The translations under genes and the position numbers were made by a program. Below, one piece after another: positions 43,082 through 57,079 of a DNA stretch of 64,000 nucleotides. Under the pieces are notes generated by a model, which saw only the letters and a program-made list of their open reading frames with translations, was not told where the DNA came from and made no database searches. The stretch is taken from NCBI RefSeq assembly GCF_017312725.1, contig NZ_BOPO01000110.1, forward strand, positions 1 to 64,000, read 5' to 3'. Each line of letters starts with the position of its first letter. Position 1 is the first letter of the stretch. Source of the stretch: Actinocatenispora comari. GTDB lineage: Bacteria > Actinomycetota > Actinomycetes > Mycobacteriales > Micromonosporaceae.

Positions 43082-43087
43082 GGGCTC

Positions 43088-43687
43088 GTGGTGGCGGTGT
43101 CGCGGCGGCTTCGGCAGGCGGTAGCGGTGTCTCGCCGGGTGCGGTGGCAGGTGCGGAGCTCGGTCATGGGTTCGGTGCCGGTGCGGGCGTGGATGCGGGC
43201 GACCTACCGGACCGGCAAGACGGTGGCGTCGATGCGCTACGGGCTCCCGCAACGGGGCGTGGTGGCGGTACGGCGGTCGGGTGGCCGGACGAGGTTCGCT
43301 CGTCGTCCGGCGGGCCGCTCGGGGATGAGTCGTCCGGCGGTGGGTCGGCCGGCTCGTCCGGCAACTGGTGGTGGCCGGTCGGCTCGTCCGGCGGGTCAAC
43401 GGAATGTCCGGCAACAGGTGAGGAGAGCAGTCATGGCAGACGAGGCGTTGGCGCAGGTCCGGACCGCGCTACAGGGCAAGGTCGGCAACGGTGAGGGTCT
43501 GGCGCTGGTCCGCTCGTGGGCGGCGTCGGTGCGCTCAGCGGCCGACGAGGTGGCGTCGGTGCAGCGGAAGTTGTCGGTGGCTGAGGATGAGTTCCTGGAC
43601 CGTCCGGCGCAGCAGTCGTTCAACTGGCTGGCGCGGCTGACCGACAACCTGGATCACTTGGCGCGCAAGCTGTCCGCCGGCCAGTAG
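43088..43687 (+). CDS. AICE hypothetical protein with Arg-rich N-terminus
   Basis: 199 aa if read from GTG 43088. Residues 1-115 are very basic and low in complexity (RSGGRTRFARRPAGRSG type). Residues 116-199 are a normal helical domain (ADEALAQVRTALQGKVGNGE, SFNWLARLTDNLDHLARKLS). An internal ATG at 43433 has GAGGAG at ideal distance, so the real product may be only the last 84 aa, or two products may be made. Followed by a strong terminator. Confidence 0.5.
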   Translation: MVAVSRRLRQAVAVSRRVRWQVRSSVMGSVPVRAWMRATYRTGKTVASMRYGLPQRGVVAVRRSGGRTRFARRPAGRSGMSRPAVGRPARPATGGGRSARPAGQRNVRQQVRRAVMADEALAQVRTALQGKVGNGEGLALVRSWAASVRSAADEVASVQRKLSVAEDEFLDRPAQQSFNWLARLTDNLDHLARKLSAGQ

Positions 43688-43717
43688 GCGGCACGGTAAG
43701 TCACGGAAGGTAGGGCG

Positions 43718-43755
43718 AGGGCCGCCCGTCACGCACACAGCATGCGGGCGGCCCT
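43718..43755 (+). terminator. Terminator upstream of traB
   Basis: 11-bp perfect stem (43718-43728 with 43745-43755), 16-base loop, followed by TTTCTG. It separates the pra/small-gene operon from the transfer operon. Confidence 0.7.
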
Positions 43756-43803
43756 TTCTGTGCCAAAACACGGTTACGCACGGTGAGCGGAGGGGTAGGG
43801 GTC

Positions 43804-45432
43804 ATGGCTAAGCGGGTGGTGGCCACGCAGGTCTATCGCGAGTCGATGGGCCAGCGGCTGTGGGACGCGATGCCGCTGGTGGTGCAGATCCCGGTAGCGG
43901 TGGGTGTCGGCGTCTACCGGGTGATCAAGCTCGCGGTCCAGCACCCCCGCACCACCGGCGTGGTCGCCACGCTCGGCACGGCGGGGCTGGTCGGGGGCCG
44001 GTGGGCGCTGGCCGGCGTCGTCCTGGCCCCGATCGTCGCCGGTGCGGTGTTCCGGATCTGCTGGCCGGCCTCGTTCAAGCAGCGGGTCACGCCCCACATT
44101 CTGCGGTGGCAGCGTCGCTGGATCCGCTACGGCCGGCGGTGGGACCGCTGGATGACCCGGTGCAAGCTGACCGTGCGGGACCACGACGGCGAGGTCATTC
44201 CCAGCATCCGCAAGGTGCAGGTCCTGCCGGCGGCCGATCGGCTGCTGGTCGACGTGCCGGTCGGGATGACCGTGGACACCCTGCGCGGCAAGACGGGGGA
44301 GCTGGCGAACGCGGCGCGGGCGCTGGCCTGCCGGGTGTGGGAGGTGCCGGGCAGTCCCGGCGAGGCGTGGGTGGAGTTCCAGCACACCGACATCCTGACC
44401 TCCACGGTGGCGGCGCTGCCGATCCCGCAGGCCGACGAGTCGGGCATGGTGCCGGTGGACCTGGCGGCCGTCCCGGTCGGCATGCGTGAGGACGGGACCG
44501 CGTGGGTGATTCCGCTGCTGGCCCGGCATGTGCTGGTGGCGGGCCGGTCCCGGTCGGGTAAGGGCTCGCTCATCTGGTCGGTACTGCGGTACCTGGCGCC
44601 GGCGATCCGGGCCGGTCTGGTGAAGGTGACCGGGATCGACCCGAAGGGCGGCATGGAGCTGTCCATCGGGCGCCCGTTGTTCACCCGGTATGAGGCGGAC
44701 CGGGCCGAAGCCATGGTCGAGCTGCTGGAGGCAGAGGCCGATCATATGGACTGCGTGGCGTTGGAGCTGGCGGGCAATGTCCGCAAGTTCACCCCGTCGA
44801 TGACCCACCCGCTGCATCTGGTGATCGTGGACGAGTTGGCGACGCTGACCGCGTACGCGCCGATGGATGTGCGGCGCCGGGCTGAGTACGCGTTGGGGCG
44901 GCTGCTGACCAAGGGCGCGGCGGTCGGCTGGGTGGTGCTCGGGTGCGTGCAGGAGCCGTCGAAGGACATCATCCCGATGCGCGGCCTGTTCACCTACCGC
45001 ATCGCCCTCGGGCTCGACACCCCGTCGCAGGTGGACATGGTGTTGGGCGACGGGATGCGCGACCTGGGTGCGCTGGCCGATCAGATCCCGTTGACGGCGC
45101 CGGGCATGGGCTACGCGCTGTCGGAGTTCGAGAAGAACCCGTTCCGGGTGCGTGCCGCCTACGTCGATGACGACCAGATCCGCGACATGGCCGCCGAGTA
45201 TGCGCCGATCACCACCGACGCCAACGACGTCGAAGACATCCCGGCTGCCCCCATGGCTGGCAACCGCAACGAGGGCCAGGCGGACGAGGCCAAGCGGCCG
45301 GAGCCGGTGGAAGTGGTCGACCTGGAGGAATGCCCGCCGGCCGACGCGACGCCGGTAGTGCCTGACTCGCTGCTGGCCAAACTGCGCAACCTGCCGGCAG
45401 CGGACGGCTCGGACGGATCGGAGGCGGCGTGA
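43804..45432 (+). CDS. traB: TraB/FtsK-type DNA translocase of AICE-1
   Basis: Single-protein conjugation motor that pumps double-stranded DNA between mycelial cells. 542 aa. Two N-terminal membrane helices (about 25-85), then the FtsK/SpoIIIE motor: Walker A GRSRSGKGS near 246-254, IDPKGGMELSIGRPLFTRY, Walker B LVIVDELATL near 340, and GCVQEPSKDIIPMRGLFTYR. The C-terminal ~80 residues are acidic and would carry the DNA-recognition element. ATG 43804 follows GGAGGGGTAGGGG. Confidence 0.9.
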   Translation: MAKRVVATQVYRESMGQRLWDAMPLVVQIPVAVGVGVYRVIKLAVQHPRTTGVVATLGTAGLVGGRWALAGVVLAPIVAGAVFRICWPASFKQRVTPHILRWQRRWIRYGRRWDRWMTRCKLTVRDHDGEVIPSIRKVQVLPAADRLLVDVPVGMTVDTLRGKTGELANAARALACRVWEVPGSPGEAWVEFQHTDILTSTVAALPIPQADESGMVPVDLAAVPVGMREDGTAWVIPLLARHVLVAGRSRSGKGSLIWSVLRYLAPAIRAGLVKVTGIDPKGGMELSIGRPLFTRYEADRAEAMVELLEAEADHMDCVALELAGNVRKFTPSMTHPLHLVIVDELATLTAYAPMDVRRRAEYALGRLLTKGAAVGWVVLGCVQEPSKDIIPMRGLFTYRIALGLDTPSQVDMVLGDGMRDLGALADQIPLTAPGMGYALSEFEKNPFRVRAAYVDDDQIRDMAAEYAPITTDANDVEDIPAAPMAGNRNEGQADEAKRPEPVEVVDLEECPPADATPVVPDSLLAKLRNLPAADGSDGSEAA

Positions 45433-45686
45433 TGAGTGCGGTACCAGCAGACAACGACGGGGCGCGGCTGTTCCGCATCCGGGTCCCTGGATCGGAGAAG
45501 TCCACGGCGGTCACGGTGCGGATGACCGACGAGTCGGCGTGGATCGCGATCGGGGCACGACATCGCAGGCTTCCGCTCACGGTCCCGGAGGCGTGGGCGC
45601 TGTTCAAAGCCCTGGCCGACGCCCTGGACACCGCCGGGGAACCGCCGGCGTTCCTGTCTCGTCCTGTCAAGCGCGACACCAAGTAG
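45432..45686 (+). CDS. Small AICE protein following traB
   Basis: 84 aa; ATG overlaps the traB stop (TGATG). Beta-rich core KSTAVTVRMTDESAWIAIG then LTVPEAWALFKALADALD. No known domain; similar small proteins follow traB in other AICEs. Confidence 0.55.
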   Translation: MSAVPADNDGARLFRIRVPGSEKSTAVTVRMTDESAWIAIGARHRRLPLTVPEAWALFKALADALDTAGEPPAFLSRPVKRDTK

Positions 45687-45702
45687 AGGGAGGTGACCTG
45701 TG

Positions 45703-46422
45703 ATGGCTGAGGCAAGCAAGACCCAGCGGGTGGAGGACATCGCCCGGCTCGGGATCATGGGCGCGATCGGCGTCATGGCCGGTGCCGCGTCCTTCACGCA
45801 CATGCACGACTGGACGATGCAGGCGCTTCCGCACGGGACGGCCGACTGGTTCGGCTGGGCGAACGCGGTCGCTTCCGAGCTGATGCCCACGTGTGCGCTG
45901 TTGGAGATCCGCCGGAAGCGCCGCTCAGGCGGCTCGATCGGCTACCCGGTCGCGCTGCTGGTCGCCTCCGGCCTGCTCTCGCTGGGCGCCCAGGTCTCGC
46001 AAGCCGGAGACTCCCTCACCTCGAAGGGTCTGGCGGCGTTACCGGCGTTGGCGTTCATGCTGCTGGTCAAGCTGGTGTTCTCCGGGCTGCCCCACGGCAC
46101 GCCGGCGTCGCAGGCTTCGGCTGACGAGGATGCCGCCGACCATCAGCACCAGACCTCCGCCGGCGATCACCGCGGTATGCCACACGCGCTCGTGGCGGAC
46201 GGCCCGCACGATCGTGAAGAAGACACCGACCCACGCGATCGACAGACCGAACTGGCGCAGCACATCCCCGCCGTTGCGGACGGGCCACAAGGGGTACCAG
46301 CGAGGTCGGCGCATGATCAGAACGTAGCGGCGCCCGGACCGGTGACGCCTCGTCCGATCGTCCCGTCTGCCCCGGTGGTGCCGGGTCGTGTTAACGGCCG
46401 TCCGGTGGTGGTCGGCCGATGA
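45703..46422 (+). CDS. SpdB-like DUF2637 membrane protein
   Basis: 239 aa. Four hydrophobic helices between residues 10 and 130 (LGIMGAIGVMAGAASFTHMHDW, WFGWANAVASELMPTCALLE, GYPVALLVASGLLSLGAQVSQ, LPALAFMLLVKLVFSG), the DUF2637 layout of mycelial spread proteins that help transferred DNA cross septa. From about residue 138 on, the protein is hydrophilic and unusual (HDREEDTDPRDRQTEL), and this part is antisense to a plausible membrane protein gene at 46039-46314. The stop overlaps the rep start (ATGA). Confidence 0.75.
   Translation: MAEASKTQRVEDIARLGIMGAIGVMAGAASFTHMHDWTMQALPHGTADWFGWANAVASELMPTCALLEIRRKRRSGGSIGYPVALLVASGLLSLGAQVSQAGDSLTSKGLAALPALAFMLLVKLVFSGLPHGTPASQASADEDAADHQHQTSAGDHRGMPHALVADGPHDREEDTDPRDRQTELAQHIPAVADGPQGVPARSAHDQNVAAPGPVTPRPIVPSAPVVPGRVNGRPVVVGR
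46039..46314 (-). CDS. Candidate antisense two-helix membrane protein inside spdB
   Basis: 91 aa from ATG 46314, opposite to the 3' half of the SpdB-like gene. It begins MRRPRWYPLWPVRNGGDVLR and has two good membrane helices (LSIAWVGVFFTIVRAV and WHTAVIAGGGLVLMVGGILVS) ended by SRSLRRRR, then a Gln/His-rich tail that simply mirrors the spdB membrane segment. The first 65 residues look more protein-like than the sense frame. Ribosome-binding site is not evident. It may be a real convergent gene or a relic inverted into spdB. Confidence 0.4.
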   Translation of the reverse strand: MRRPRWYPLWPVRNGGDVLRQFGLSIAWVGVFFTIVRAVRHERVWHTAVIAGGGLVLMVGGILVSRSLRRRRAVGQPGEHQLDQQHERQRR

Positions 46423-48206
46423 GCACCGACATGATGACGCTGCCCGGTCTCGGGCAGGACGAGGCACCCCGGCAGGGGTCGCGGGCGGCTCGACTGTTGC
46501 AGCCGATCGCGAAGGACGTTGCGGTTGAGCTGGCGAAGCAGTTCGGGGTGTGCGTCAAGCCGGTCTGGCTTCGGCGCACCAACACGGCGACCGGGGAAAC
46601 CGAGCTGGTGTCGGTGCCGTGCGGCGCTACCTCGGCGGCGAAGTGTGAGCCGTGCGCGGAGGCGAACCGCAGGCTGCGGATGCAGCAGATTCGGGAGGGC
46701 TGGCACCTGACCGACGAGCCGGTCACGACCCCTGATGCCCCGACCGATGAGCAGCGGGAGTTGGTGGAGTACCGGGCGGTGTTGGAGTTCGCCCGGACCT
46801 CGGTTGTCTTGGCGGCCGAGTGGGACCAGGTGCGCGAGCTGGACGCGGAGATTGACCGGGTGGACGAGCAGATCACCGCGGCCGGTGTGCGCGGCTCGGT
46901 CCTGCCCGGCGGCCGGAAAGACGGCAGCGATCCGGACGAGTCGGCCCCGGCCCGGAAGCGGTCCACGAAACGGCGGCAGGACGCACCGGACCTTCCTCGG
47001 CTGCCCGTGGCGAACCGGACGATCCCGCATCCGCACATCGGTACGGACGGGCGGGAGCACCGGGACTCGATGTTCCTGACGCTGACGCTGGGCTCGTACG
47101 GGCCGATCCACTCCGCCTACCGCCGTCGCGGCCGGGTGCAGGTATGCGAGTGCGGACAGCTGCACAGCCCCCACGACCCCCGCATCGGGACCCCGGTGGA
47201 CCCCGACTCCTACGACTACCGGGCCGCGGCGCTGGACTGCATCCACTTCGCCAAGGTCCTCGACCGGTTCTGGCAGAACCTGCGCCGGGCCGTGGGCTGG
47301 AACGTGCAGTACGCGGGGTCGGTGGAGATGCAAAAGCGGCTGGCCCCGCACGGGCACTTCGCCGTCCGGGGCGCACTGGCCCGCAAGCTGGCCAACCAGG
47401 TCGCGGCGGCGACCTACCACCAGGTGTGGTGGCCCGCCCACGACAAGATCGTGTACGACCCGGACGGGGCAGTACCGGTGTGGGACCCAGACACGAAAAC
47501 CTACCGGGACCCCGAAACCAGCGCGGCGCTGCCGACCTGGGACGAGGCGCTGGACGCGATCGACGAGGACCCGGACGCGGAGCCTGCGCACGTGGTGCGG
47601 CTGGGCGCTCTCAACGCCAAGGGCGTACGGGGTGGCTCCGAGAGCGCGGAGAAGACGATCCGCTACATCACGAAGTACATCACCAAAGACATCACCGACG
47701 CGGTCGCACCGGGGTCGCGGGCGCAGGAAGACCACCTCGCTCGCCTGGCGGCGGAGCTGCAAGTCCTGCCGTGCTCTCCGACGTGCGCGAACTGGCTGCT
47801 GTACGGGGTGCAGCCCAAGAATGCCAAGGCCACGGCGCGGCCGGGACGGTGCAAGGGCAAGGTGCATCAGCGGCGCACGCTCGGGTTCACCGGGCGGCGG
47901 GTTCTGGTCTCCCGGCAGTGGTCGAACAAGACCCTGTCCGATCACCGGGCCGACCGGAAAGCCTGGGTCAAGGCTCTGCTCGCGCTTTCGGCAACCGGGG
48001 AGACGGCCGGCGAGCACGACCGGGTGCCCGGCGACCCGCCCCCGTTCGAGTACGAGTTGGCGTCGAGGGACGACCCGGACGTGCCTCCGCCGCACGTGCA
48101 CTTCTTGCGCAAGATCGCCGAACGGCAAGCCTGGCGGGCACAACTCGACGCGGCGAAACAACAGGTACAGCAGCAGCTTTCGGCAACGCAAACCGTTGCG
48201 GCATAA
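46419..48206 (+). CDS. repSA: RepSA-type rolling-circle replication initiator
   Basis: 595 aa. Starts double-stranded replication of the excised element by nicking its origin. Cys68/Cys76/Cys79 form a zinc-like knuckle (CGATSAAKCEPC). The HUH metal motif is RLAPHGHFAVRG (about 308-317) after the VGWNVQYAGSVE strand; the catalytic Tyr is expected in KTIRYITKYITKDI (near 412-420). FLTLTLGSYGP is the conserved first strand. Typical of pSAM2-like elements, whose origin lies in or beside this gene. Confidence 0.87.
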   Translation: MSTDMMTLPGLGQDEAPRQGSRAARLLQPIAKDVAVELAKQFGVCVKPVWLRRTNTATGETELVSVPCGATSAAKCEPCAEANRRLRMQQIREGWHLTDEPVTTPDAPTDEQRELVEYRAVLEFARTSVVLAAEWDQVRELDAEIDRVDEQITAAGVRGSVLPGGRKDGSDPDESAPARKRSTKRRQDAPDLPRLPVANRTIPHPHIGTDGREHRDSMFLTLTLGSYGPIHSAYRRRGRVQVCECGQLHSPHDPRIGTPVDPDSYDYRAAALDCIHFAKVLDRFWQNLRRAVGWNVQYAGSVEMQKRLAPHGHFAVRGALARKLANQVAAATYHQVWWPAHDKIVYDPDGAVPVWDPDTKTYRDPETSAALPTWDEALDAIDEDPDAEPAHVVRLGALNAKGVRGGSESAEKTIRYITKYITKDITDAVAPGSRAQEDHLARLAAELQVLPCSPTCANWLLYGVQPKNAKATARPGRCKGKVHQRRTLGFTGRRVLVSRQWSNKTLSDHRADRKAWVKALLALSATGETAGEHDRVPGDPPPFEYELASRDDPDVPPPHVHFLRKIAERQAWRAQLDAAKQQVQQQLSATQTVAA

Positions 48207-48225
48207 GGATCTGGGGAGGATCACT

Positions 48226-48423
48226 GTGTCCACGAAGGACGCGGTTCGGCTCGAACCTGCTTGGACGATTGACGACGTGGCGGCGTACCTGCGGGTGCCG
48301 GTCGAGACGCTACGGACTTGGCGAAAGAAGCGCACCGGCCCGCCGGCTCGTCGCTGCGGCAAGCACCTCCGGTACGACCCGGAGGCCGTCCGGGCGTGGC
48401 TCAGTTCGAGCGACGTGGCGTAG
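48226..48423 (+). CDS. xis: Excisionase (HTH_17/MerR-like)
   Basis: 65 aa from GTG 48226, with GGGAGGA five bases upstream. WTIDDVAAYLRVPVETLRTW, then RKKRTGPPARRCGKHLRYDP, is the winged-helix Xis pattern. It directs the integrase toward excision. 19 bp after the rep stop, and the integrase gene starts 11 bp after its stop; the usual rep-xis-int order of AICEs. Confidence 0.85.
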   Translation: MSTKDAVRLEPAWTIDDVAAYLRVPVETLRTWRKKRTGPPARRCGKHLRYDPEAVRAWLSSSDVA

Positions 48424-48434
48424 GGCGGCGGGAC

Positions 48435-49661
48435 GTGGCGCACATCGAGGATCGTTGGTACCGACCGACGCAAGACGAGTTCGGCAAGGTGGTCGTCAAC
48501 GGCCGCGGCAAGCCGGTGATGGAGCGGACGGAGAGGTACGGCAAGGGGGATCGGTACCGCGTTCGCTACCTGACCCCAGCGGGGGAGCGGCGGAGCAAGT
48601 CCTTCGCGGACAAGCAGAAGGGCGATGCTGAGGCGTTCCTCATCACCGTTGAGTCCGAGAAGCGGCGAGGGACGTACGTCGATCCCACCGCCGGCAAGGT
48701 CTTGTTCCGCGACTACGCGGAGCAGTGGATGCGCGGACAGACGTTCGATGAGTCGACCCGCGAATCGGTCGAGTACCGCGTTCGCAAGCACCTCTATCCG
48801 ATGCTCGGCGGCCGTCCGCTGGGCAAGATCAACCCCGGGCTGATCCGGGAGTGGGACCGTTCGCTGTACGACGTGCTGTCGGCGTCAACGCGCTCGGTCG
48901 TCTTCGCTCACCTACGGGCCATCCTCGGCGCGGCCGTCGATGACGAGAAGATCGTCAAGAACCCGTGTACCGCGCGCTCGGTACGACAACCGCGGCCCAC
49001 TGAACGCCGCGTCGTGCCGTGGACTCGCGAGCAGGTGGCTGGGATCCGCCGTGCGATGCCGGAGCGGTATCGGCTGGTGGTGGACCTCGGCGCCGGTTGT
49101 GGCCTTCGGCAGGGTGAGATTTTCGGTTTGTCTCCGGATGACGTGGACCTGGATGCCGGGGTGATCCATGTGCGGCGGCAGGTCAAGCGGGTCCGCTCGC
49201 GGTTGGTCTTCGGCCTGCCCAAGAACGATCGCGACCGGCATGTGCCGCTTCCGAGCATGATCGCGCGCCGAATCGAGGACCACATCGACGGTGGTCGGTT
49301 CGGCCCGACCTCGATCACGCTGCCGTGGGAGAACCCGCTGACCGGGAAGCCGACCACGGTCGACCTGCTGTTGACCACGACCCGGAACGGTGCGCTCAAC
49401 CGGTCGACGTTCGACAGCAAGATGTGGCATCCGGCCTTGGCCCTGGCGGGCATCGAACGGTCGCGCGCGACCGGCGTCCACGCGCTGCGGCACTTCTACG
49501 CCTCGGCGCTGCTGGACGCGGGGGAGAACATCAAGAGCCTGTCGAGCTACCTCGGGCACCACGACCCCGGCTTCACGCTGCGGGTGTACACGCACCTGAT
49601 GCCGTCGAGTGAGGACAGGGCGCGTCGCGCGATCGACAGCGTGTTCGGTGGGGACGAGTAG
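48435..49661 (+). CDS. int: Tyrosine integrase of AICE-1
   Basis: 408 aa from GTG 48435; the longer frame upstream overlaps xis. N-terminal arm-binding and core-binding domains (FRDYAEQWMRGQTFDESTRE), then the catalytic domain: Arg225 (GCGLRQGEIFGL), His349-x-x-Arg352 (HALRHFYAS), a His in YLGHHDPGFTLR and the nucleophile Tyr385 (VYTHLM). It catalyses recombination between the element site and the rnpB 3' end; attR begins 69 bp after its stop. Confidence 0.92.
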   Translation: MAHIEDRWYRPTQDEFGKVVVNGRGKPVMERTERYGKGDRYRVRYLTPAGERRSKSFADKQKGDAEAFLITVESEKRRGTYVDPTAGKVLFRDYAEQWMRGQTFDESTRESVEYRVRKHLYPMLGGRPLGKINPGLIREWDRSLYDVLSASTRSVVFAHLRAILGAAVDDEKIVKNPCTARSVRQPRPTERRVVPWTREQVAGIRRAMPERYRLVVDLGAGCGLRQGEIFGLSPDDVDLDAGVIHVRRQVKRVRSRLVFGLPKNDRDRHVPLPSMIARRIEDHIDGGRFGPTSITLPWENPLTGKPTTVDLLLTTTRNGALNRSTFDSKMWHPALALAGIERSRATGVHALRHFYASALLDAGENIKSLSSYLGHHDPGFTLRVYTHLMPSSEDRARRAIDSVFGGDE

Positions 49662-49730
49662 CCCCCACGCGACCCCCGGAGAGGTGCGGCCCGGGTGTTT
49701 TGCCAGGTCAGAGGCTACGTCGTGACAGTC

Positions 49731-49760
49731 CCCGGCGTACCGGCCGACTCGTCCACCCCA
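49731..49760 (+). repeat. attR of AICE-1, probably also attL of AICE-2
   Basis: Perfect 30-bp copy of 35258-35287. It carries the end of rnpB (including the P1 3' strand) but no upstream rnpB sequence. Integrase genes of two different elements flank it: one ends 69 bp before, the other has its stop 25 bp after. Confidence 0.88.
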
Positions 49761-49784
49761 ACGCTGTGACCTGCGGCGATATCA

Positions 49785-50930
49785 TCAGGCACCCCCGCTG
49801 TTCCGCCGCTGTTCCGCCGGCCGGATCGCGAGCAGCGCCTCGACGGCACCGCGGCCGAGGTCGGCGTCATCCGGGAACAGATGCCCGTAGGTGTCCATGG
49901 TCTCGGTGATCGTGGCGTGCCCGAGTCGGGTCTGTACCGCCTTCGGGTTGACGTTCGCCCGGATCAGCGCCGAGGCGTACGTGTGCCGCAGATCGTGGAA
50001 CCGGGTACCGGCCGGCAGACCAGCGCGGTCGACCGCCTCACGCCAGCAGTGGCCGAAGCTCGACCGCTGCGCGATCTTCCACGACCGGTTGGTGACCAGC
50101 ACACCGCCCGGACCCTCGCGGTACCCGTCCCGCTGCATGTGCTTGGTGATCTCGGCCAACACCCAGTCGTCGGCCGGGACGGTGCGGCGTGACGCGGCAG
50201 TCTTCAGCTCGACCAGCTCGCCGTTCTGCGCCTGCTCGCGCACCAGGACGCGGCGGCGCAGGAAGTCGACCTGCGGGACGGTGAGGCCGAGCGCCTCACC
50301 CTCGCGCAGGCCGAGGCCGAACCCGAGCACCACGGCGAGCCGGTACCGCTCGGTGATCGCCTCGCACAGCGCGAGCAGTGCCTCGGCCGGCAGCGGCTCG
50401 ACGGCGTGCGCGGTCACGCGGGGGAGCGGCACCCGCGAGCACGGGTTGACGCCGATCACCTGGTCGTCGACGGCGGACTGCATCAGGCTGCGCAGCACCG
50501 CGAACACGGTGTGCACGGTCGACGCGCTGAGCTTGCCGCTGATCGCCGTCACGAACGCCTTCATGTCGGACCTGCCGAGGCTGCCGATCGGGCGCTCACC
50601 CAGCGCCGGCAGGATGTGGTTCCGCAGGTGCCGGTCGTACGTCTCGGTCGAGTTGCTGCGCAGGTGAACCTGCGCCGGCAACCACCTGGTCGTGGCGTAG
50701 TCCGTGAGCCGGATCCGGCCGGCGCGCTGGTCGACGTACACGCCGCGGTGCCGGTCCGCTTCCATCGCGACCGAGTGCCGGTCGGCGTCGGTCCGCCGAG
50801 CGAACGCCTTCGTGTGCTCGCGGCCGTCCGGCCCGATCCATACAGCAAGCCACCGCTTCGCCCGCCCCGGGTTCGCCTTGGCACGCTCGCGCCGAGCCGG
50901 GTCCTCCCAGAGGTCCCTAACGCGCGCCAT
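49785..50930 (-). CDS. int: Tyrosine integrase of AICE-2
   Basis: 381 aa from ATG 50930 (MARVRDLWEDPARRERAK). Core-binding domain LTDYATTRWLPAQVHLRSNS. Catalytic residues Arg209 (GLGLREGEALGL), His312-x-x-Arg315 (FHDLRHTYASAL), His in RLGHATITETM and Tyr348 (DTYGHLF). It is clearly a different lineage from the AICE-1 integrase. The start overlaps the XRE gene end by 14 bases; the stop is 25 bp from the shared att repeat. Confidence 0.9.
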   Translation of the reverse strand: MARVRDLWEDPARRERAKANPGRAKRWLAVWIGPDGREHTKAFARRTDADRHSVAMEADRHRGVYVDQRAGRIRLTDYATTRWLPAQVHLRSNSTETYDRHLRNHILPALGERPIGSLGRSDMKAFVTAISGKLSASTVHTVFAVLRSLMQSAVDDQVIGVNPCSRVPLPRVTAHAVEPLPAEALLALCEAITERYRLAVVLGFGLGLREGEALGLTVPQVDFLRRRVLVREQAQNGELVELKTAASRRTVPADDWVLAEITKHMQRDGYREGPGGVLVTNRSWKIAQRSSFGHCWREAVDRAGLPAGTRFHDLRHTYASALIRANVNPKAVQTRLGHATITETMDTYGHLFPDDADLGRGAVEALLAIRPAEQRRNSGGA

Positions 50931-51630
50931 CGTCGCCGCCCTGGTCGCCGACCCGGATCTGCCCGGTGTCGATGCCGACCCGTGCCATGTCGTCGACGAC
51001 CCCACGATGCAGCCGCGGCGGGAGCACGTCCCGGTCGCGCATCTCCTTGTGCACGGTGGCCAGTGCGGCGAGCGCGTCGCTGTACTGGCGGCGTGCCTCA
51101 ACGGCAGCGGGTGAGTCGGCGCCGTCGGTGTACTCCTTCGTCTGCACTCGACCGTTGGCCTGCTCGACACGCTGTTGGGCCGCGTAGTGCTCGCGGTACA
51201 GCACGAGGGGCAGCGCGGCGCGCTGATAGAAGGGCACATCCCCGGTGACGTGGCGGTCCGATGTCGTCTGCGGAGTCTCACCCTCGATCCAGCGACGCAC
51301 CAGGTCCGGATGCAGCGCCACGTCGGGGACCGCTTCCATGCTGTCGCTCTCGCCGAGCGGCAGCAGCAGCGCCAGCGGCGGCACCGACAGTGCGTACGAC
51401 AGCGCCAGCCACTCGCCGACGGTCACGATGTTGCGCCGGCCGCTCTCCAGGTTGGCGATGGTCTGGCGATCCCACTGCAGGCCGATCTCCTGGCATCGCT
51501 CGGCGAGCCGTTGAGCGCTCATCGTGCCGCGGTACGTCTTGATCCGCTCGGCGACGATCTCGGCCAGCCCGGCGTCGGTCGGCACGAGCTCGGCGCGTGT
51601 GCGGCGCCCGCTGCGCGGTGTCTGTGTCAT
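50917..51630 (-). CDS. XRE-family regulator of AICE-2
   Basis: 237 aa from ATG 51630. Helix-turn-helix in MSAQRLAERCQEIGLQWDRQ, then TIANLESGRRNIVTVGEWL (about 36-75); ALSVPPLALLLPLGE follows. The C-terminal half is helical with QYSDALAALATVHKEMRDRD and has no known domain. It probably acts as the maintenance repressor; a 12-bp dyad lies just upstream of its start. Co-transcribed with the integrase. Confidence 0.8.
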   Translation of the reverse strand: MTQTPRSGRRTRAELVPTDAGLAEIVAERIKTYRGTMSAQRLAERCQEIGLQWDRQTIANLESGRRNIVTVGEWLALSYALSVPPLALLLPLGESDSMEAVPDVALHPDLVRRWIEGETPQTTSDRHVTGDVPFYQRAALPLVLYREHYAAQQRVEQANGRVQTKEYTDGADSPAAVEARRQYSDALAALATVHKEMRDRDVLPPRLHRGVVDDMARVGIDTGQIRVGDQGGDDGAR

Positions 51631-51638
51631 AGAAGCGC

Positions 51639-51684
51639 ACTCTAGCGAGTCCACATTGACAAAGCTAGCCCCGGGCCGGAAGAT
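51639..51684. promoter_or_regulatory. Operator/promoter between XRE gene and AICE-2 early operon
   Basis: A dyad ACTC-TAGC-GAGT (51639-51650) is followed by TTGACA at 51656-51661 and a weak GAAGAT 17 bp further (51679-51684), reading toward the Xis-like gene. Suits repression by the divergent XRE protein. Confidence 0.4.
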
Positions 51685-51734
51685 GCTCACCAACGACAGT
51701 CCAAAGCGCAGGACTGTGCGAGGGGAGCACAACC

Positions 51735-51932
51735 ATGGCCGAACGGCTTATGACGGTGGGCGAGGTCGCCGAGTACCTCGCCGTGCCGGTGCAGACGATC
51801 TACGCATGGCGGAAGCGGTCGGAGGGCCCGCGCGGATGCCGCGTTGGCCGCTACGTGCGATTCCGGCGGACGGATGTCGAGAAGTGGCTCGACCAGCAGG
51901 CGGCGGGCGGCGGCCCCGGGGCGGCGGCCTGA
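51735..51932 (+). CDS. xis: Excisionase-like HTH_17 protein of AICE-2
   Basis: 65 aa. LMTVGEVAEYLAVPVQTIYA, then WRKRSEGPRGCRVGRYVRFR, is a MerR-like winged helix, as in Xis proteins. First gene of the rightward operon, divergent from repressor and integrase. It could be an excisionase or an activator of the operon. Confidence 0.78.
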   Translation: MAERLMTVGEVAEYLAVPVQTIYAWRKRSEGPRGCRVGRYVRFRRTDVEKWLDQQAAGGGPGAAA

Positions 51933-51933
51933 C

Positions 51934-52233
51934 ATGCCGCAGACACGAAACCGCCGCACCGGCGACGACTCCGGTACGGCGGTCAACAACATGGTCGGCG
52001 AGACCGCTGTCAGCGTACCGCGCTTCCCCGTGGCGTACGCCTCGGCGTGGGCGCCGTCGGCTCGCCGCACCCGCTGGGTGGTCGTGACCCGCTGCCCGTT
52101 CTGCGGCGCCGGACACGTCAGCTACGCCCACGAGATCGAGCGGGCGGGCGGTCTGCGCCGACCCGGCTGCCGACCTGGTGCCCGGTACTGGGTGGCGGTG
52201 GCCCGCACCTACACGGGAGAGGTGGCGGAGTGA
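51934..52233 (+). CDS. Small zinc-ribbon-like protein
   Basis: 99 aa from ATG 51934, one base after the previous stop. RWVVVTRCPFCGAGHVSYAH has a CxxC knuckle with a nearby His, and RRPGCRPGARYWV follows. Zinc binding is likely; function unknown. Its stop overlaps the next start (TGATG). Confidence 0.6.
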   Translation: MPQTRNRRTGDDSGTAVNNMVGETAVSVPRFPVAYASAWAPSARRTRWVVVTRCPFCGAGHVSYAHEIERAGGLRRPGCRPGARYWVAVARTYTGEVAE

Positions 52234-52688
52234 TGAACGGATCCGTTACACCGCAACGTTCCTGTGACGGGTGCGGGGAGCCGTTCGCACCGCGCCGGTC
52301 GGATGCCCGGTACTGCTCGGGTCGGTGCCGCACTGCGGCCTATCGCAACCGTCACACCCCGGTGGAGACGAAACGGGTACGTCGTCGGCCGATCCGGGAC
52401 GCATGGCGGGATGCGGCGTGGGAGTACCTGCGGGCCGCCGAGCGCCTCGCCCGGCTCACCGAAGACGACCGGTTCGCCGGCGACGTCGACGAGCTGTTCA
52501 GGATCGGCGGCCGGCTGATCGCCGATGCTGACCTGGCGATGACCACCTACCACGCGCACGTCGACCAGATCGACAAGAAGACCCGGCAGCAGGTCCTCAT
52601 CGGGCGGGTACTGCCGCGGACCGAACGGGCGTTCCTGCGATCCGTAACAGGAGAGTCGTTCGGTGACGGATCGGGGGATGCGGCATGA
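52233..52688 (+). CDS. Zinc-finger hypothetical protein
   Basis: 151 aa. N-terminal CDGCGEPFAPRRSDARYCSG followed by RCRTAAYRNR: a CxxC...CxxxC zinc finger of the kind found in phage and plasmid proteins that bind DNA. The rest is helical. Overlaps the primase-like gene (ATGA), so probably part of the replication module. Confidence 0.62.
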   Translation: MNGSVTPQRSCDGCGEPFAPRRSDARYCSGRCRTAAYRNRHTPVETKRVRRRPIRDAWRDAAWEYLRAAERLARLTEDDRFAGDVDELFRIGGRLIADADLAMTTYHAHVDQIDKKTRQQVLIGRVLPRTERAFLRSVTGESFGDGSGDAA

Positions 52689-54622
52689 GCGCGCTGGACA
52701 TCGTGTTGGGCAAGCTGTCTGCGGCCACCGGCACCGCGCCGAGGCAGTCGGCCGGGCAGTACGTGCTGCGCTGCCCGGCCCATGAGGATCACTCGCCGAG
52801 CCTGTCGGTGCGGGGTATTGAGGGGCAGGCGTTGGTGTACTGCCACGCCGGGTGTGCGGTCGAGGATGTGCTCGCCGCGGTCGGGTTGACCCTCGCCGAT
52901 CTGTACGACGAGCGGCGTGCGGACTACCGGTACGACGACGGCCGGGTCGTGCGGCGTCGGTACGAGCAGGGGAGGCGGATCTTCAAGCAGTCGGGGACCG
53001 ACCGGCCGCCGACCCTGTACCGGCTCGCCCGGGTCGCCGATGCGGTCGCGGACGGACGCCGGGTGTACCTCGTCGAGGGTGAGAAGGACGTGCACGCCCT
53101 GGAGTCGCTGGGCGCGGTGGCGACCACGGCGCCGATGGGCGGCGGCAACTTCGACAAGGTCGACGTCTCGCCGCTCAAGGGTGCCGAGGTGGTCGCGGTC
53201 GCCGACCGGGACGCCACCGGGGTCCGGTGGGCCGAGGTGGTGCGGTCCCGGCTCGTCGGGTACGCCGGCAGCCTCGCCGTGGTCGAGGCAGCCGAGGGGA
53301 AGGACGCGGCCGATCATGTCGTGTCTGGGCATGGCCTGGCCGACTTCGTGCCGGTCGACGAGCCGAGCGCCGGTACCCCTGGAGATCAACACTCCGAGCT
53401 GCCGCCGAGCCGGCGGGTGGACTTCTGGCGGGCGCGCCCGTACTTGGCCCACATTCGCCAGTACGCGCAGGCCCGGATGGTCGGGCCGTGGGCAGTGTTG
53501 GGCAACGTGCTGGTGCGGGTGGCGTGCGCGACCGAGCCGACCACGATGCTGCCCAAACTGATCGGCCACTACGGCAGCCTGAACACGTTCATCGCGTTCG
53601 TGGGGCCGTCCGGACTCGGTAAGGGCACTGCGGCCGCCGCCGCCGACGATCTGCTCCAACTGTCCGACGAGATCGACGAGATGCCGCCCGGGTCCGGCGA
53701 GGGCATCGCCCGGATGTTCGCCCACCGGTACAAGGAAGGCGCCGGCGCCGACGCCACCTGGACGCTGACGAAGGACCGCACCCGGCTGCTGCTGGTGGCC
53801 GACGAGGTCGACTCCTTGGCCGCGCTGGGTGGACGCAAAGGCGCGACGCTGCTGCCGGAACTGCGTAAGGCGTGGTCGGGTGAACGGCTCGGATTCGCTT
53901 ACGGCGACCGGGAGAAGGCCGTCATCCTGCCGGCACACTCCTACCGGCTCGGCCTGACCGTCGGCGTACAGCCCGAACGGGCCGGGGCGCTGCTCGACGA
54001 CGCCGCCGGCGGCACGCCACAGCGGTTCCTGTGGCTGCCGGTCGGGGACCCGGATGTGCCCGAGTGCGACGTCGACGACCCCGGTACGGCCGAGCTGACT
54101 CTCCCGAAGGTGGGCGCCATGACCGTGCCCGCGGCGATCGGCGCCGAGATCAAGGCCAACCGGCGTCACCAACTGCGCACCGAGACCAGCAACCACGACA
54201 TGATGCTCCGGCTCAAGGTCGCCGCGCTACTGGCCCTGATGGACGACCGGGGCGACATCAACGCCGAGGACTGGGAGCTGGCCGGGGTCGTCAAGGCGGT
54301 GTCCGACGAGACGCAGCAGCGGATCCGTGACGCACTGTCGGATGCCGCCCGCCGGACCAACCACGGCCGCGCCCTGGCCGACGCCGACCGCGAGATCGTC
54401 AAGGCCGACCGGGTCGCCGAGGCGACCGGGCAGCGCATCGCCCGGTTCCTGCGGCGCAAGATCACCGCGCAGGGTGTGTCGCTGCGCGACGTCCGTCATG
54501 CACTGGCCTCCCGGGACCGGCCGGACTTCGAGAGCGGTCTGGACCGGCTCGTCGCCGCCGGCGAGGTCGAGATCTACGACGCCGACAAGGGTCAAGCGGT
54601 CCGACTCAAGGCGGGTTCCTGA
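52685..54622 (+). CDS. Toprim-helicase replication protein (DUF3987-like)
   Basis: 645 aa. N-terminal CHC2-type zinc finger (RCPAHEDHSPSLSVR, YCHAGC), Toprim domain (YLVEGEKDVHALESLGA near 129-145; VVAVADRDATG near 175), then a DUF3987/RepA-like ATPase with Walker A FVGPSGLGKGTAA near 305-316 and LLLVADEVDSLAAL as Walker B. The C-terminal part is helical with a final winged-helix-like end. Likely primes and unwinds the element's DNA, replacing the RepSA initiator of AICE-1. Confidence 0.82.
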   Translation: MSALDIVLGKLSAATGTAPRQSAGQYVLRCPAHEDHSPSLSVRGIEGQALVYCHAGCAVEDVLAAVGLTLADLYDERRADYRYDDGRVVRRRYEQGRRIFKQSGTDRPPTLYRLARVADAVADGRRVYLVEGEKDVHALESLGAVATTAPMGGGNFDKVDVSPLKGAEVVAVADRDATGVRWAEVVRSRLVGYAGSLAVVEAAEGKDAADHVVSGHGLADFVPVDEPSAGTPGDQHSELPPSRRVDFWRARPYLAHIRQYAQARMVGPWAVLGNVLVRVACATEPTTMLPKLIGHYGSLNTFIAFVGPSGLGKGTAAAAADDLLQLSDEIDEMPPGSGEGIARMFAHRYKEGAGADATWTLTKDRTRLLLVADEVDSLAALGGRKGATLLPELRKAWSGERLGFAYGDREKAVILPAHSYRLGLTVGVQPERAGALLDDAAGGTPQRFLWLPVGDPDVPECDVDDPGTAELTLPKVGAMTVPAAIGAEIKANRRHQLRTETSNHDMMLRLKVAALLALMDDRGDINAEDWELAGVVKAVSDETQQRIRDALSDAARRTNHGRALADADREIVKADRVAEATGQRIARFLRRKITAQGVSLRDVRHALASRDRPDFESGLDRLVAAGEVEIYDADKGQAVRLKAGS

Positions 54623-54927
54623 TGGGGTGGACGCGCCTGAATCCGGGGACACGTGGGGACATTGTCCCCGGTACCTCAAGCACAACGGCCGATCACCGAC
54701 TACCCGCACCCCGGGTGACCAGCGAAAACACTTCTAGCCGGGGACAGATTCCCGCAGAACGCGGGGACATTGTCCCCACGTGTCCCCGACCAGACGTGAC
54801 CATCGCCGAACCCGTCGACGGCCCCGACTGCGGCTGGTGGCTCGTCGCCAGCCGCGGCGAGCACGGCACCGACTGCCCCGGCTGCCGGCAGGCAACCGGG
54901 GGGCCCGACCACCGGGAGGCGTCGTGA
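54622..54927 (+). CDS. Small protein overlapping dyad repeats
   Basis: 101 aa, ATG overlapping the primase stop. The first half (RGDIVPGTSS ... ERGDIVPTCP) is largely dictated by the GGGGACATTGTCCCC repeats underneath; the second half GPDCGWWLVASRGEHGTDCP with GCRQ looks like a small zinc-binding protein. The real start may therefore be further in, and the repeat DNA may be regulatory. Confidence 0.45.
   Translation: MGWTRLNPGTRGDIVPGTSSTTADHRLPAPRVTSENTSSRGQIPAERGDIVPTCPRPDVTIAEPVDGPDCGWWLVASRGEHGTDCPGCRQATGGPDHREAS
54645..54787. repeat. Inverted pair of 25-bp GGGGACA...TGTCCCC sites
   Basis: Copies at 54645-54669 and 54763-54787 are inverted relative to each other and differ only at the central base of the dyad. 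Each holds the 15-bp palindrome GGGGACA-T-TGTCCCC (54655-54669, 54763-54777) with an extra half-site. A weaker third, GGGGACAGATTCCC, begins near 54740. Sites of this form bind repressors or initiators. Confidence 0.75.
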
Positions 54928-55055
54928 CCGTTACCGACCCCGACCTCGTCGACGAGCAGCTCGCCGCCGCGCTCGCCGGACTGTCCGCCGCCGCCGACCA
55001 GCTCGCCGCGGCGATCCGCGAACTGACCGACACCACGAAGGAGAAGACGACGTGA
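54924..55055 (+). CDS. 43-aa helical protein (copy 1 of a pair)
   Basis: GTG 54924 behind GGGAGGC. Sequence pattern TDPDLVDEQLAAALAGLSAA then ADQLAAAIRELTD: an amphipathic helix. Same length and pattern as the gene at 55318. Too short for a usual ORF cut-off but fits tightly between coupled genes; its stop overlaps the next GTG. Confidence 0.6.
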   Translation: MTVTDPDLVDEQLAAALAGLSAAADQLAAAIRELTDTTKEKTT

Positions 55056-55321
55056 ACGACGAGACCACCACCGAGGCGCTGCGCCGGTTCCGCGAGCGGC
55101 TCGGCTACTTCACCGAGCGGATCGCGCTCGGTGCCGGCGACGACGTCGACGACCTGCCCGACGTGATCTTCCAGGAGGTCGCCTACCTCGCCCAGAAAGG
55201 CCCGGTCGCGTACGTCCGGTACGTGGAAGGTCTCGATGCGCTGGCGCGCGGCGGCGCCGAACTACGGGCAGGCCTTGACCGGGAGCTGCGGCTGATCCTT
55301 GGCGAGGGAGACGACCGGTGA
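55052..55321 (+). CDS. AICE-2 hypothetical protein
   Basis: 89 aa. GTG 55052 with AAGGAG upstream, overlapping the previous stop. Acidic helical protein: EALRRFRERLGYFTERIALG, LPDVIFQEVAYLAQKGPVAY, and a third helix DALARGGAELRAGLDRELRL. No domain recognised. Confidence 0.6.
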   Translation: MNDETTTEALRRFRERLGYFTERIALGAGDDVDDLPDVIFQEVAYLAQKGPVAYVRYVEGLDALARGGAELRAGLDRELRLILGEGDDR

Positions 55322-55449
55322 CAGCGTCCGCCAGCGCCGAGTCGGACATCGGCGAAGTCGCTGCCGCCGTGGCCGCGCTGTCCGCGGCCGTCGACCATCT
55401 GGGCGCAGCGATCCGGGACCTGACCGGCATGACCGAGGAGGCGCCGTGA
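55318..55449 (+). CDS. 43-aa helical protein (copy 2 of a pair)
   Basis: GTG 55318 overlaps the previous stop. Pattern EVAAAVAALSAAVDHLGAAI then RDLTGMTEE aligns along its length with the 54924 gene (shared ALxAAxxxLxAAIRxLT). Evidently a duplicated small gene. Confidence 0.6.
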   Translation: MTASASAESDIGEVAAAVAALSAAVDHLGAAIRDLTGMTEEAP

Positions 55450-55784
55450 GCGACGAGGCGGTTGAGGCGCTGCTGTGGCCGCCGGAGCTGGGCGGGCGAG
55501 CTGGCGGTCCGTACCTGCAGCTCGGGACGGACGGTGCGCTGATTCTGACGGTGGCGTCGGCGGCGCTGCTGATGGGCGTGGATCCCGACGAGATGGCCCG
55601 GGTGCACGAGGCGCACGTCGAGGACACCTGCCTGGTCGAGGACGTTCGCTTCCCGCCCGGCTGGATGGCGCAAGGCAAGGCGACGATCGCGCGCGTAAGC
55701 GAGCAGTACGGCGCCGAAACGCTGATCGAGGTGCTGCTGATCCTGCTCGCCGAGCGCGAGCAGTCGGCCCGAGCAGAGGGGTAG
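55446..55784 (+). CDS. AICE-2 hypothetical protein
   Basis: 112 aa, GTG overlapping the previous stop. VSDEAVEALLWPPELGGRAG, LILTVASAALLMGVDPDEMA, FPPGWMAQGKATIARVSEQY, LIEVLLILLAEREQ. Helical with two hydrophobic stretches probably buried in a soluble fold. No family assigned. Confidence 0.6.
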   Translation: MSDEAVEALLWPPELGGRAGGPYLQLGTDGALILTVASAALLMGVDPDEMARVHEAHVEDTCLVEDVRFPPGWMAQGKATIARVSEQYGAETLIEVLLILLAEREQSARAEG

Positions 55785-55790
55785 GGCACC

Positions 55791-56045
55791 TTGGCGCTGG
55801 ACACCCGTGAGCGGCTCATCCTGCGGTGGTGCGCGGAGAACAGCCGCGACCCCCGTATCCCGGGCATCCTGGCGGCGCTCGCGACCCGTACGGCCACGCC
55901 CGGCCTGTGCGCCCGGTGCGGCGAGGAGTTGCCCGCCCCGGCCGCAGGGAAGTGTCACGGACGGCCGCGCCGGTATTGCCTGCGCTGCAGGCCATCCCGG
56001 GCCAAACTCCCGCCAAACTCGGTGCCGGTCGCAGGCTCGGTGTAG
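55791..56045 (+). CDS. Small zinc-finger protein
   Basis: 84 aa from TTG 55791 behind AGAGGGGTAGGG. LDTRERLILRWCAENSRDPR, then LCARCGEELPAP and RRYCLRCRP: two CxxC knuckles of a zinc ribbon. Possibly DNA-binding; function unknown. 56046-56169 after it is non-coding. Confidence 0.6.
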   Translation: MALDTRERLILRWCAENSRDPRIPGILAALATRTATPGLCARCGEELPAPAAGKCHGRPRRYCLRCRPSRAKLPPNSVPVAGSV

Positions 56046-56169
56046 CCGCAGGTTGGCCTGGCACTGGCCGGCCTGCGGTCAGCACCGCCCACGGAGCGGC
56101 CACCGGTACCGCCCCGAGCCGTGGCACTCGGCGAGGTGTGATTCCGAACCGACGTAGTGGAGGCCCTTC

Positions 56170-56349
56170 ATGGTCACCCTGCTGACCGACGTGATCGCCG
56201 CCGAGCAGCGTTATCTCGACGCCCGCAAGGCCGGCGACCGCGCAACCATCCGCGCCGCCGAGGACGAGCTGAGGACCACTCAACGCCTGTTCGGTGCCGG
56301 CGCGGACCGCCAGGCCGCGCCAGGCGCGGCCGGACAGGAGAACCGATGA
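56170..56349 (+). CDS. 59-aa helical protein
   Basis: ATG 56170; reads MVTLLTDVIAAEQRYLDARK then AGDRATIRAAEDELRTTQRL and a short Gly/Ala-rich end. Short but clearly coding by codon use, and its stop overlaps the next ATG (ATGA). No domain recognised. Confidence 0.5.
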   Translation: MVTLLTDVIAAEQRYLDARKAGDRATIRAAEDELRTTQRLFGAGADRQAAPGAAGQENR

Positions 56350-56822
56350 GCTGGACCATGGGGCACCGCGACGGTGCTCTCACCATCGCCGCCGCGCGTG
56401 GCCTGATGTTCATGGGCGAAGAGGACCGGGAGGCCGCTCAGTACCGGTACGACCGGTCCGTTGCCCGTGCCCAGCGTGTTGCCCGCGAGAACCGGCTGGA
56501 GGCCAAGGTCGCGGAGCTGGAGGCGGAATCTGCCGCGCGCCACGCTGCCCGCCTTCGCCGCCTCGCGGGGATGCCGACGCGGACGGCTGTGCTCCCCGTT
56601 GCCACCCGCACGACGGCCCGCAGCGTCTCGCGGCGCCCGGTGGACAGCATCGAGCGGGCGCGAGAGGAGGCCCGTCGCCACCCCGGCGTGGCCATCCCGT
56701 ACTCGGACGGCCACATCACGTACGCCGACGGCTTCCACTGCAGCGGGACGCAGGTGGCGGCCGAGAACGTCCTGGCACGCAACGCCGAGCGCAGTACCCG
56801 AGCGGGTCGGGAGACCCGGTGA
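56346..56822 (+). CDS. Coiled-coil hypothetical protein
   Basis: 158 aa. ATG 56346 overlaps the previous stop. A charged helix (EDREAAQYRYDRSVARAQRV, then RLEAKVAELEAESAARHAAR) is followed by a linker and a C-terminal segment PGVAIPYSDGHITYADGFHC that looks like a small beta domain. Precedes the tape-measure-like gene in the operon. Confidence 0.58.
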   Translation: MSWTMGHRDGALTIAAARGLMFMGEEDREAAQYRYDRSVARAQRVARENRLEAKVAELEAESAARHAARLRRLAGMPTRTAVLPVATRTTARSVSRRPVDSIERAREEARRHPGVAIPYSDGHITYADGFHCSGTQVAAENVLARNAERSTRAGRETR

Positions 56823-57079
56823 TCACCGTGCCGGCCACGCCGCGGGTCCCCGCCGCGCTCGCCTACGAGCGCGCCGTGGCCGAGCGCGGCTGGCTCGGCG
56901 CGGATCCCGCCATGGTGCGCGACAACATCCTTGCCGCCGCCCGATCGGCCGTCGCGGCAGTCGAGGCCGCACAGCAGGGCCCTGCGCGAGGCCAGGTCGA
57001 CGAGCCGACCGACGAGCGGCTCGCCGCCATGCTGGCCCGCCTGCAGGCTGTCATCGGCTCTCTGGAGGGTGAGCGCTGA
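56819..57079 (+). CDS. Small helical protein before tape-measure gene
   Basis: 86 aa, GTG overlapping the previous stop; the stop overlaps the next ATG by one base. ALAYERAVAERGWLGADPAM, NILAAARSAVAAVEAAQQ and RLAAMLARLQAVIGSLEG are helices. Unassigned; position recalls small tail-assembly genes that precede tape-measure genes in phages, but likeness is only positional. Confidence 0.55.
   Translation: MITVPATPRVPAALAYERAVAERGWLGADPAMVRDNILAAARSAVAAVEAAQQGPARGQVDEPTDERLAAMLARLQAVIGSLEGER

Follow-up and report, generated by a model that had tools for sequence, protein, structure and literature searches.

An array of integrative elements at the 3′ end of the RNase P RNA gene rnpB in Actinocatenispora comari

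In Actinocatenispora comari the 3′ end of rnpB, the gene of the RNase P RNA, very probably served as a chromosomal attachment site (attB) at which at least three integrase-borne elements were inserted successively. The stretch analysed here, called the window, comprises the first 64,000 bp of contig NZ_BOPO01000110.1 (assembly GCF_017312725.1). The contig has 76,452 bp and continues 12.5 kb beyond the window end; the draft genome has 7.96 Mb. The order along the contig is rnpB, att-A, element 1, att-B, element 2, att-C, remnant 3, att-D and chromosome. Four exact cores and elements with different integrases are the pattern of tandem accretion. An earlier reading of the window, made from the sequence only, had proposed two elements stacked at one site; elements 1 and 2 are retained here, but the array comprises three segments and four cores, with an apparently decayed third segment of 1.5 kb.

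Core copies, arm-type repeats and segment boundaries

The whole genome contains a single match to the Rfam model RF00010. A 30-bp repeat, CCCGGCGTACCGGCCGACTCGTCCACCCCA, is present exactly at the end of rnpB (35258-35287) and again at 49731-49760. The stop of integrase 1 lies 69 bp ahead of this second copy (49661 against 49731), as the sequence-only reading had stated. Integrase 2 faces it on the other strand, also as described, with its stop at 49785, which is 24 bp past the copy and not 25 bp. At all four sites A to D, 26 bases are identical (CCGGCGTACCGGCCGACTCGTCCACC; core starts at 35259, 49732, 64834 and 66299), and the shared stretch amounts to 30 bases for A/B, 27 for B/C, 26 for C/D and 45 for A/D. 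A genome-wide search allowing up to three mismatches found the 22-mer core exactly at 35263, 49736, 64838 and 66303 only, always on the plus strand of this contig. Three further places have three mismatches each, and the 22-mer read backwards as a control gave no match. The third copy to the right, suggested earlier as a check, is thus present and its 22-mer starts 838 bases past the window end; the fourth lies beyond it. Compared by eye over 16 bases, the reverse complement of the core differs from the rnpB 5′ end at a single position, and the core is therefore regarded as the 3′ strand of the P1 helix.

The features that define the array are:

34874-35282, plus strand: rnpB, full-length RNase P RNA of class A (Rfam RF00010, 259 bits), its 3′ end being the proposed attachment site
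35259-35284, plus strand: att-A core, exact repeat, 3′ strand of the rnpB P1 helix, proposed attL of element 1
35263-49735, plus strand: element 1, a RepSA-type actinomycete integrative and conjugative element (AICE) of 14,473 bp from att-A to att-B, with relatives in the sister genome G002
35374-35414, plus strand: arm-type repeats of element 1, four GAGCCCCC units, probable integrase arm sites as judged from the repeats alone
48435-49661, plus strand: integrase 1 (int1), in the direction of rnpB, pointing to att-B (PF00589 above cut-off)
49732-49757, plus strand: att-B core, exact repeat, right end of element 1 and left end of element 2
49758-64000, no strand assigned: element 2 within the window, continuing to att-C, 15,102 bp in all, delimited by cores and paired repeats at both edges
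49785-50930, minus strand: integrase 2 (int2), pointing to att-B from the opposite side (PF00589 above cut-off)
49798-49816, plus strand: arm-type pair of element 2, CTGTTCCG-N3-CTGTTCCG, overlapping the 3′ end of int2, with its partner at contig positions 64703-64721
64834-64859 of the contig, plus strand: att-C core, exact repeat, right of the window

Each segment has short repeats of its own near the cores. In element 1 these are the GAGCCCCC units; similar words also follow int1, and the 76-kb contig has no AGCCCCC pairs (gap 0-6) elsewhere. For element 2, the pattern CTGTTCCG-N(0-5)-CTGTTCCG has exactly two occurrences in the 76,452 bp, right of B and left of C, and none on the other strand of the contig. 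As the pair stands only beside the cores at B and C, att-C is assigned as the right boundary of element 2, in agreement with the boundary check proposed earlier. We also considered att-D as its right end, and this was ruled out by the pair beside att-C and by segment 3 starting with a left end of the element-1 type. Segment 3 shows a third type of repeat, ACGGCCC/GGGCCCAG at 64952-65010, and pairs of such words are found nowhere else in the contig. Lambda-type integrases that share a core site and have private arm sites would be expected to give this layout of one core with three repeat types. Because the core is common but the arm-like repeats are element-specific, each integrase probably serves its own ends. 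Within these repeats, words resembling AGGTCAG are found left of B and C, and words resembling CTGACCT right of A and C and, with one change, of B, all 30-62 bp from the core start. In some genomes of genus g23 such words form a terminator-like hairpin after rnpB, and for this reason we make no claim on them.

Segment 3 comprises 1,465 bp between C and D (contig 64.84-66.30 kb) with cores at both ends. Its gene content is one frame with a bacterial PH domain, and an integrase, a replication gene and right-arm repeats were not found in it. Segment 3 shares 86% identity over its left 181 bp with the rnpB-adjacent end in the sister genome G003, and 90% with element 1 over a 278-bp block ending 46 bp short of att-D. 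We read segment 3 as a decayed element of the element-1 type that probably lost its interior and right arm. Flanked by att sites, without an integrase found and with ends related to a full element, it resembles a cis-mobilisable element (CIME). The right flank of att-D enters the same hydrolase gene as that of the last core in G002 (75% identical), and att-D is therefore taken as the chromosomal border.

G002 belongs to the same genus and is assembled as one contig of 7.04 Mb. Here, rnpB is followed by five tandem copies of a 16-kb element of the element-1 type, which are pairwise 98.5-99.98% identical and, in blocks, 86-92% identical to element 1. Each inner core has an integrase-side flank on its left and the flank of an element left end on its right. 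If this assembly is right, AICEs of the element-1 type can apparently multimerise at rnpB.

Integrase relatives and the spread of the core

Int1 and int2 share 31% identity over 409 aa and both match PF00589. The sequence-only reading had called the two integrases different and their elements unrelated; different they are, as members of separate clades, but the proteins are distant homologues. In a tree of 47 integrases the two stand on opposite sides of a branch with 100/100 support. The tree was built from 47 of 65 integrase rows, after 16 rows of the int1 clade had been thinned and two duplicates dropped, and alignments of at least 270 aa were kept. Rows with and without a core seen in the available DNA, and differing layouts, are found on both sides of this branch. 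A rule placing the int1 clade on one side of the core and the int2 clade on the other was tried and fails, since five rows on the int1 side have the int2-like layout.

Both integrase clades are linked to the rnpB end in other genomes. Relatives of int1 (E <= 1e-90) were detected in at least 86 of 354 genomes of the family Micromonosporaceae and in 12 of 44 genera, the former number being a lower bound as five candidates were scored per genome. The core, with up to two changes, follows the integrase on the same strand at a distance of 76-1375 bp in 25 of 30 int1 loci, the window and G002 among them. For int2, the 354 genomes gave three matches at E <= 1e-60, including that of the window itself. 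A search of named genomes yielded 27 loci, 14 of them with a best identity of at least 50%. In 13 of these 14 the core lies 63-97 bp past the integrase match on the opposite strand, and in 11 it is the end of rnpB itself, a full rnpB being confirmed by Rfam in 11 of 11. These 11 loci come from Planomonospora, three Nonomuraea, two Planotetraspora, Actinomadura, Sphaerisporangium, Rugosimonospora and two metagenome-assembled genomes (MAGs). At two loci (L029 and L036) the core beside the int2 relative is an inner one, with rnpB further up. In the fourteenth (L045) core and integrase are on the same strand, 162 bp apart, and rnpB is not in the available DNA of this locus. Among the 13 weaker loci, one (L028) lies at rnpB, four (L030-L032 and L034) have the core in other positions, and in the remaining eight no core was seen in the available DNA. 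The association of both clades with rnpB elsewhere supports what had been suggested for the window, namely tandem accretion with both integrases using the rnpB end.

The repeats of element 2 recur as well. Inspection by eye found CTGTTCCG pairs near the integrase in the int2 relatives L024, L025, L029, L036 and L094, and CTGTTCCG at both ends of the elements in L027, L029 and L037. In these three elements one end carries a pair, and the opposite end either a single word or a pair in which one base is changed.

Some further observations were made at these loci. A third layout has the core on the opposite strand, upstream of the integrase match, and was seen in three Frankiales/Frankiaceae MAGs and one viral contig (L030, L031, L032 and L091). 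In the Microtetraspora rnpB array of L029, a group II intron match (60 bits) is located at 7464-7540, near the outermost core. A tRNA gene as target was rejected for both integrases, as ARAGORN reported no tRNA in any of the loci analysed with it, which were 17 out of the 31 of the int2 search (L022-L052) and 18 out of the 30 int1 loci. In the window the sole tRNA call lies at 19.5 kb. This tRNA-Phe call (19504-19601) is unusually long with 98 bases and an anticodon at position 39, and may be false or degraded.

The core is widely distributed. The pattern CCGGCGTACMGGYCGACTCGTCC was found in 279 of the 354 family genomes, with zero control matches in the table. At least two exact copies are present in 97 of the 354, a number of genomes with repeated cores and not of proven arrays, as part of the copies lie on different contigs or a long way from each other. 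Among the first 166 genomes (through G165), 31 have at least two copies, and in 19 of them two copies lie within 20 kb on the same contig and strand. With a slightly different core pattern, 53 of 394 genomes of a class-wide sample gave matches, and 13 had two or more copies, not always on one contig as judged by eye. In IMG/VR the core was detected in ten stretches of nine contigs, and in eight of the nine contigs such a stretch holds an integrase of the int1 or int2 family. A HK97-type capsid gene is present in five of the nine and a portal gene in one, and one viral sequence (L096) contains rnpB itself with an integrase behind it. From these contigs, phages seem to use the rnpB site too.

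Insertion at rnpB is also supported by two genomes outside the genus. In G151 (genus g23) one core lies at the rnpB end and a second one 17.3 kb away, and the stretch 4.2 kb past this distal core corresponds to a stretch 3.7 kb from the rnpB end in G158 (82% over 2.2 kb). This comparison points to insertion but is not a base-perfect empty site. In contig C1 of another genome (G163), two plus-strand cores 3.2 kb apart flank a fragment of the int1 type, and a third core is located about 1 Mb away on the other strand. If rnpB is at one of these two places, it is not at the other, and the core may hence occur at secondary sites as well.

Proposed model and competing explanations

In the model that we propose, each attP carries the last ~26 bp of rnpB, which form the 3′ strand of the P1 helix. 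Insertion would rebuild an intact RNase P RNA on the left and leave an extra core on the right for the next element, and later elements could enter at any core. Int1 and int2 would read the shared core and bind their own arms, of the GAGCCCCC type in element 1 and the CTGTTCCG pairs in element 2. The likeliest reactions would be A × B for element 1 alone and B × C for element 2 alone, giving circles of 14.5 kb and 15.1 kb, and a circle of 1.5 kb from remnant 3 would be expected only with the help of another integrase. Expected composites are A-C, B-D and A-D. Joint excision (A × C, A × D) should be possible because the cores are identical, and single excision should be favoured because the arm-like repeats differ. 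We infer from the sequences that recombination took place, that the arms function with their own specificity, that the decayed remnant is the oldest insertion and that elements may excise as composites. The position of this remnant farthest from rnpB fits older elements having been pushed outwards. On a broader scale, we think it likely that one and the same ~26-bp core was adopted by several lineages of integrases, carried by AICEs as well as by phages, and that their genes are placed relative to it in at least three ways. With identical cores and private arms, the locus would then be an accretion hub, where different elements stack, decay and may move in combination.

Several findings weigh against this model. 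The core was not seen in 5 of the 30 int1 loci, with up to 1.5 kb of DNA available, nor in the available DNA of 8 of the 27 int2-search loci. An 18-kb circular Streptomyces plasmid carries an int1 relative (48%) and has no rnpB core at up to four changes, so related integrases can have other targets. The exact CTGTTCCG word is missing from the element ends that could be inspected in L028, L047 and L048, with L047 carrying GGGGCACAT words instead; the left arm pair of element 2 shares sequence with int2 codons, and the putative arm function is deduced from the repeats. The five-copy array of G002 is one assembly, in which two integrase copies match only partially; because of these partial matches and of small indels that vary the copy lengths, an assembly error is possible. 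In addition, an empty rnpB site was not found in the genus, G002 and G003 also carrying elements or remnants there. Of 145 genomes, three have the hydrolase beyond att-D; all three belong to this genus and carry elements or remnants between hydrolase and rnpB.

The alternative that survives best concerns the nature of element 2, which might be a satellite or other element derived from a phage instead of an AICE, without consequence for the stacking at rnpB. Its genes other than int2 are:

50917-51585, minus strand: helix-turn-helix (HTH) regulator (PF13560, E=9e-4, below cut-off)
51750-51932, plus strand: excisionase-family protein (TIGR01764, 45.2 bits, above cut-off)
52685-54622, plus strand: Toprim/DUF3987 primase-helicase-like protein (PF13362 and PF13148 above cut-off; PHROG DNA polymerase/primase, E=5e-60)
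57079-59394, plus strand: tail-tape-measure-like protein of 771 aa (PHROG tape-measure, best E=3e-7)
60704-62743, minus strand: FtsK-like translocase (PHROG FtsK/SpoIIIE, E=1.5e-27)

The sequence-only reading had seen a second AICE-like module in these genes. Integrase, excisionase, primase and FtsK-like translocase agree with it, but a RepSA match is absent among the scanned proteins and a tape-measure-like protein is present, and the label suits element 2 only partly. The phage-gene scan covered nine proteins against PHROGs, and these plus several small frames against Pfam, with some small frames left out. For a phage origin speaks the tape-measure-like protein, which has 28% matches in the phage contig G748 of IMG/VR and no match in Pfam. 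The same contig encodes a close relative of int2 (62%), accompanied by the arm pair known from element 2, and carries an HK97 capsid gene as well as tape-measure-like frames. However, the scan revealed neither capsid nor portal proteins, and the only terminase signal is a marginal PHROG match of the FtsK-like protein (E=1.5e-4). This protein also aligns over 683 aa, with 35% identity, to the FtsK encoded on a circular AICE-like Streptomyces plasmid of 18 kb. Its matches to PF01580 (21.4 bits, under the cut-off of 24) and to the NCBIfam TraB model (19.6 of 800 bits) are low, and it matches the PADLOC SspH model as well (E=2.5e-15). IMG/VR scans with the tape-measure-like and the FtsK-like proteins did not find relatives. 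On balance, we regard a phage or satellite as possible but rather unlikely. Since a tape-measure-like protein occurs without a capsid gene found, and given the likeness to G748, element 2 may be an AICE-phage mosaic.

Homologues of the HTH regulator adjoin int2 relatives in L024, L052 and L094. Just 3′ of the primase gene, a 27-nt inverted repeat (54644-54670 and 54762-54788, 96% complementary, 91 nt apart) is perhaps a replication origin or an operator.

Somewhat less likely again is a fossil array, whose elements entered by site-specific recombination and are now immobile. The missing integrase, replication gene and right-arm repeats of remnant 3 would agree with it, as would G003, where remnants of the element-1 type lie at rnpB and no int1 match was obtained at E <= 1e-90. 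Open frames are present, however, for integrase, excisionase, replication and translocase proteins of element 1 and for integrase and excisionase of element 2, and the near-identity of the copies in G002 points to recent activity of the element-1 type, if the assembly is right. We give little credit to one composite element with two integrases, in which att-B would be an internal repeat and the mobile unit would reach from att-A to att-C or att-D. The cores, identical over 26 bp, would in principle allow A × C and A × D, and the available text of a study on Frankia describes two tandem AICEs that excise alone and together (PMC3218068). Yet the int1 type occurs without int2 in the available DNA of the G002 array, the int2 type occurs without int1 beside rnpB in several genera (up to ~10 kb of flank seen), and each element has its own repeats at its predicted edges. 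Copying of the rnpB end by segmental duplication or homologous recombination instead of integrases can practically be dismissed: although parts of element 1 and remnant 3 are homologous, the edge repeats measure just 26-45 bp and adjoin integrase genes, and the same arrangement recurs in other genera.

Relation to known systems and content of element 1

Accretion of AICEs at one gene has precedents. According to the available text of PMC9513070, a tRNA-Arg gene in a Streptomyces population carries between one and three elements, which belong to different families and whose integrases are 39-88% identical, together with identical direct repeats and an old remnant. Stacked elements, different integrases, identical direct repeats and a remnant at the same site are thus shared with our array, whereas the target here is rnpB and not a tRNA gene, and the two integrases, placed on either side of the core, share 31% identity. 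Further tandem AICEs appear in the accessible part of PMC3218068: Fean5518/Fean5534 at a Frankia tRNA-Lys gene, which excise alone and together, and Sav3708/Sav3728 at a tRNA-Arg gene of S. avermitilis, with integrases of different sub-families. In both cases the target is a tRNA gene, unlike rnpB here. The genomic islands treated by Islander, as far as the available text tells (PMC4383910), likewise have an RNA gene as integrase target which is restored by the element, but the targets are tRNA and tmRNA genes and not rnpB. In the available texts of the two AICE papers (PMC3218068 and PMC9513070) the term 'rnpB' gave no match, nor did 'RNase P' in the main text of the former. The open full-text literature searched, as far as accessible, holds no statement on rnpB as an integration site; subscription journals are mostly outside it, so this is not proof that the site is unpublished. 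Tandem accretion of AICEs is therefore known, and new are the rnpB site, its breadth and the arrangement of one core with several arms.

The main focus of integration-site surveys is on tRNA and tmRNA genes, and the rnpB end looks like a frequent but overlooked target. Naming this site would set exact boundaries for unassigned islands. The array also offers a natural test of two integrases with one core and different arms. The rnpB end might serve as a conserved single-copy docking site for the engineering of actinomycetes. Because each element carries this end, the ribozyme gene remains intact.

Apart from int1, the following genes characterise element 1:

43804-45432, plus strand: FtsK/SpoIIIE-type translocase, TraB-like (PF01580, 32.3 bits against a cut-off of 24)
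46419-48206, plus strand: RepSA replication initiator (PF20199, E=4.9e-93)
48226-48423, plus strand: excisionase-like HTH protein of 65 aa (PF12728, 46.4 bits, above cut-off)

With an integrase adjoining att, a replication initiator and an FtsK-like TraB translocase, element 1 shows the features of an AICE. We take it to be of the same kind as the pSAM2-type AICEs, with which it shares RepSA, an FtsK/TraB-like translocase, an excisionase-like protein and the integrase adjoining att. In contrast to these, the att site is rnpB and not a tRNA gene, and the RepSA protein is far from the NCBIfam equivalog. Its score there is 55.9 of 700 bits, so it is remote from that RepSA group. The gene order is translocase, RepSA, excisionase-like HTH protein and integrase 1, corresponding to the order att-tra-rep-int-att that is described as typical for Frankia AICEs in the available text of PMC3218068.

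The left part of element 1 contains further features. Nested inverted repeats with arms of 27 and 38 nt at 35419-35569 mark its left end and are similar in G002. For the cargo protein at 35809-36639, the model of a type IV methyl-directed restriction enzyme gave a match of short length (E=1.6e-6). A second cargo region at 37491-41356 shows a reduced G+C content (0.60 at 37-40 kb against ~0.7 in the surroundings) and comprises a weak ApeA-like match below cut-off, an APH-type kinase, a HAD hydrolase and a GntR regulator. Rfam gave no match at E <= 1 for 36500-37100. This interval includes, directly after the left cargo gene, a block of ~260-280 bp (36658-36930; contig 65981-66256 in remnant 3) that is ~90% identical across element 1, remnant 3, G002 and G003 and is perhaps a cis-acting locus.

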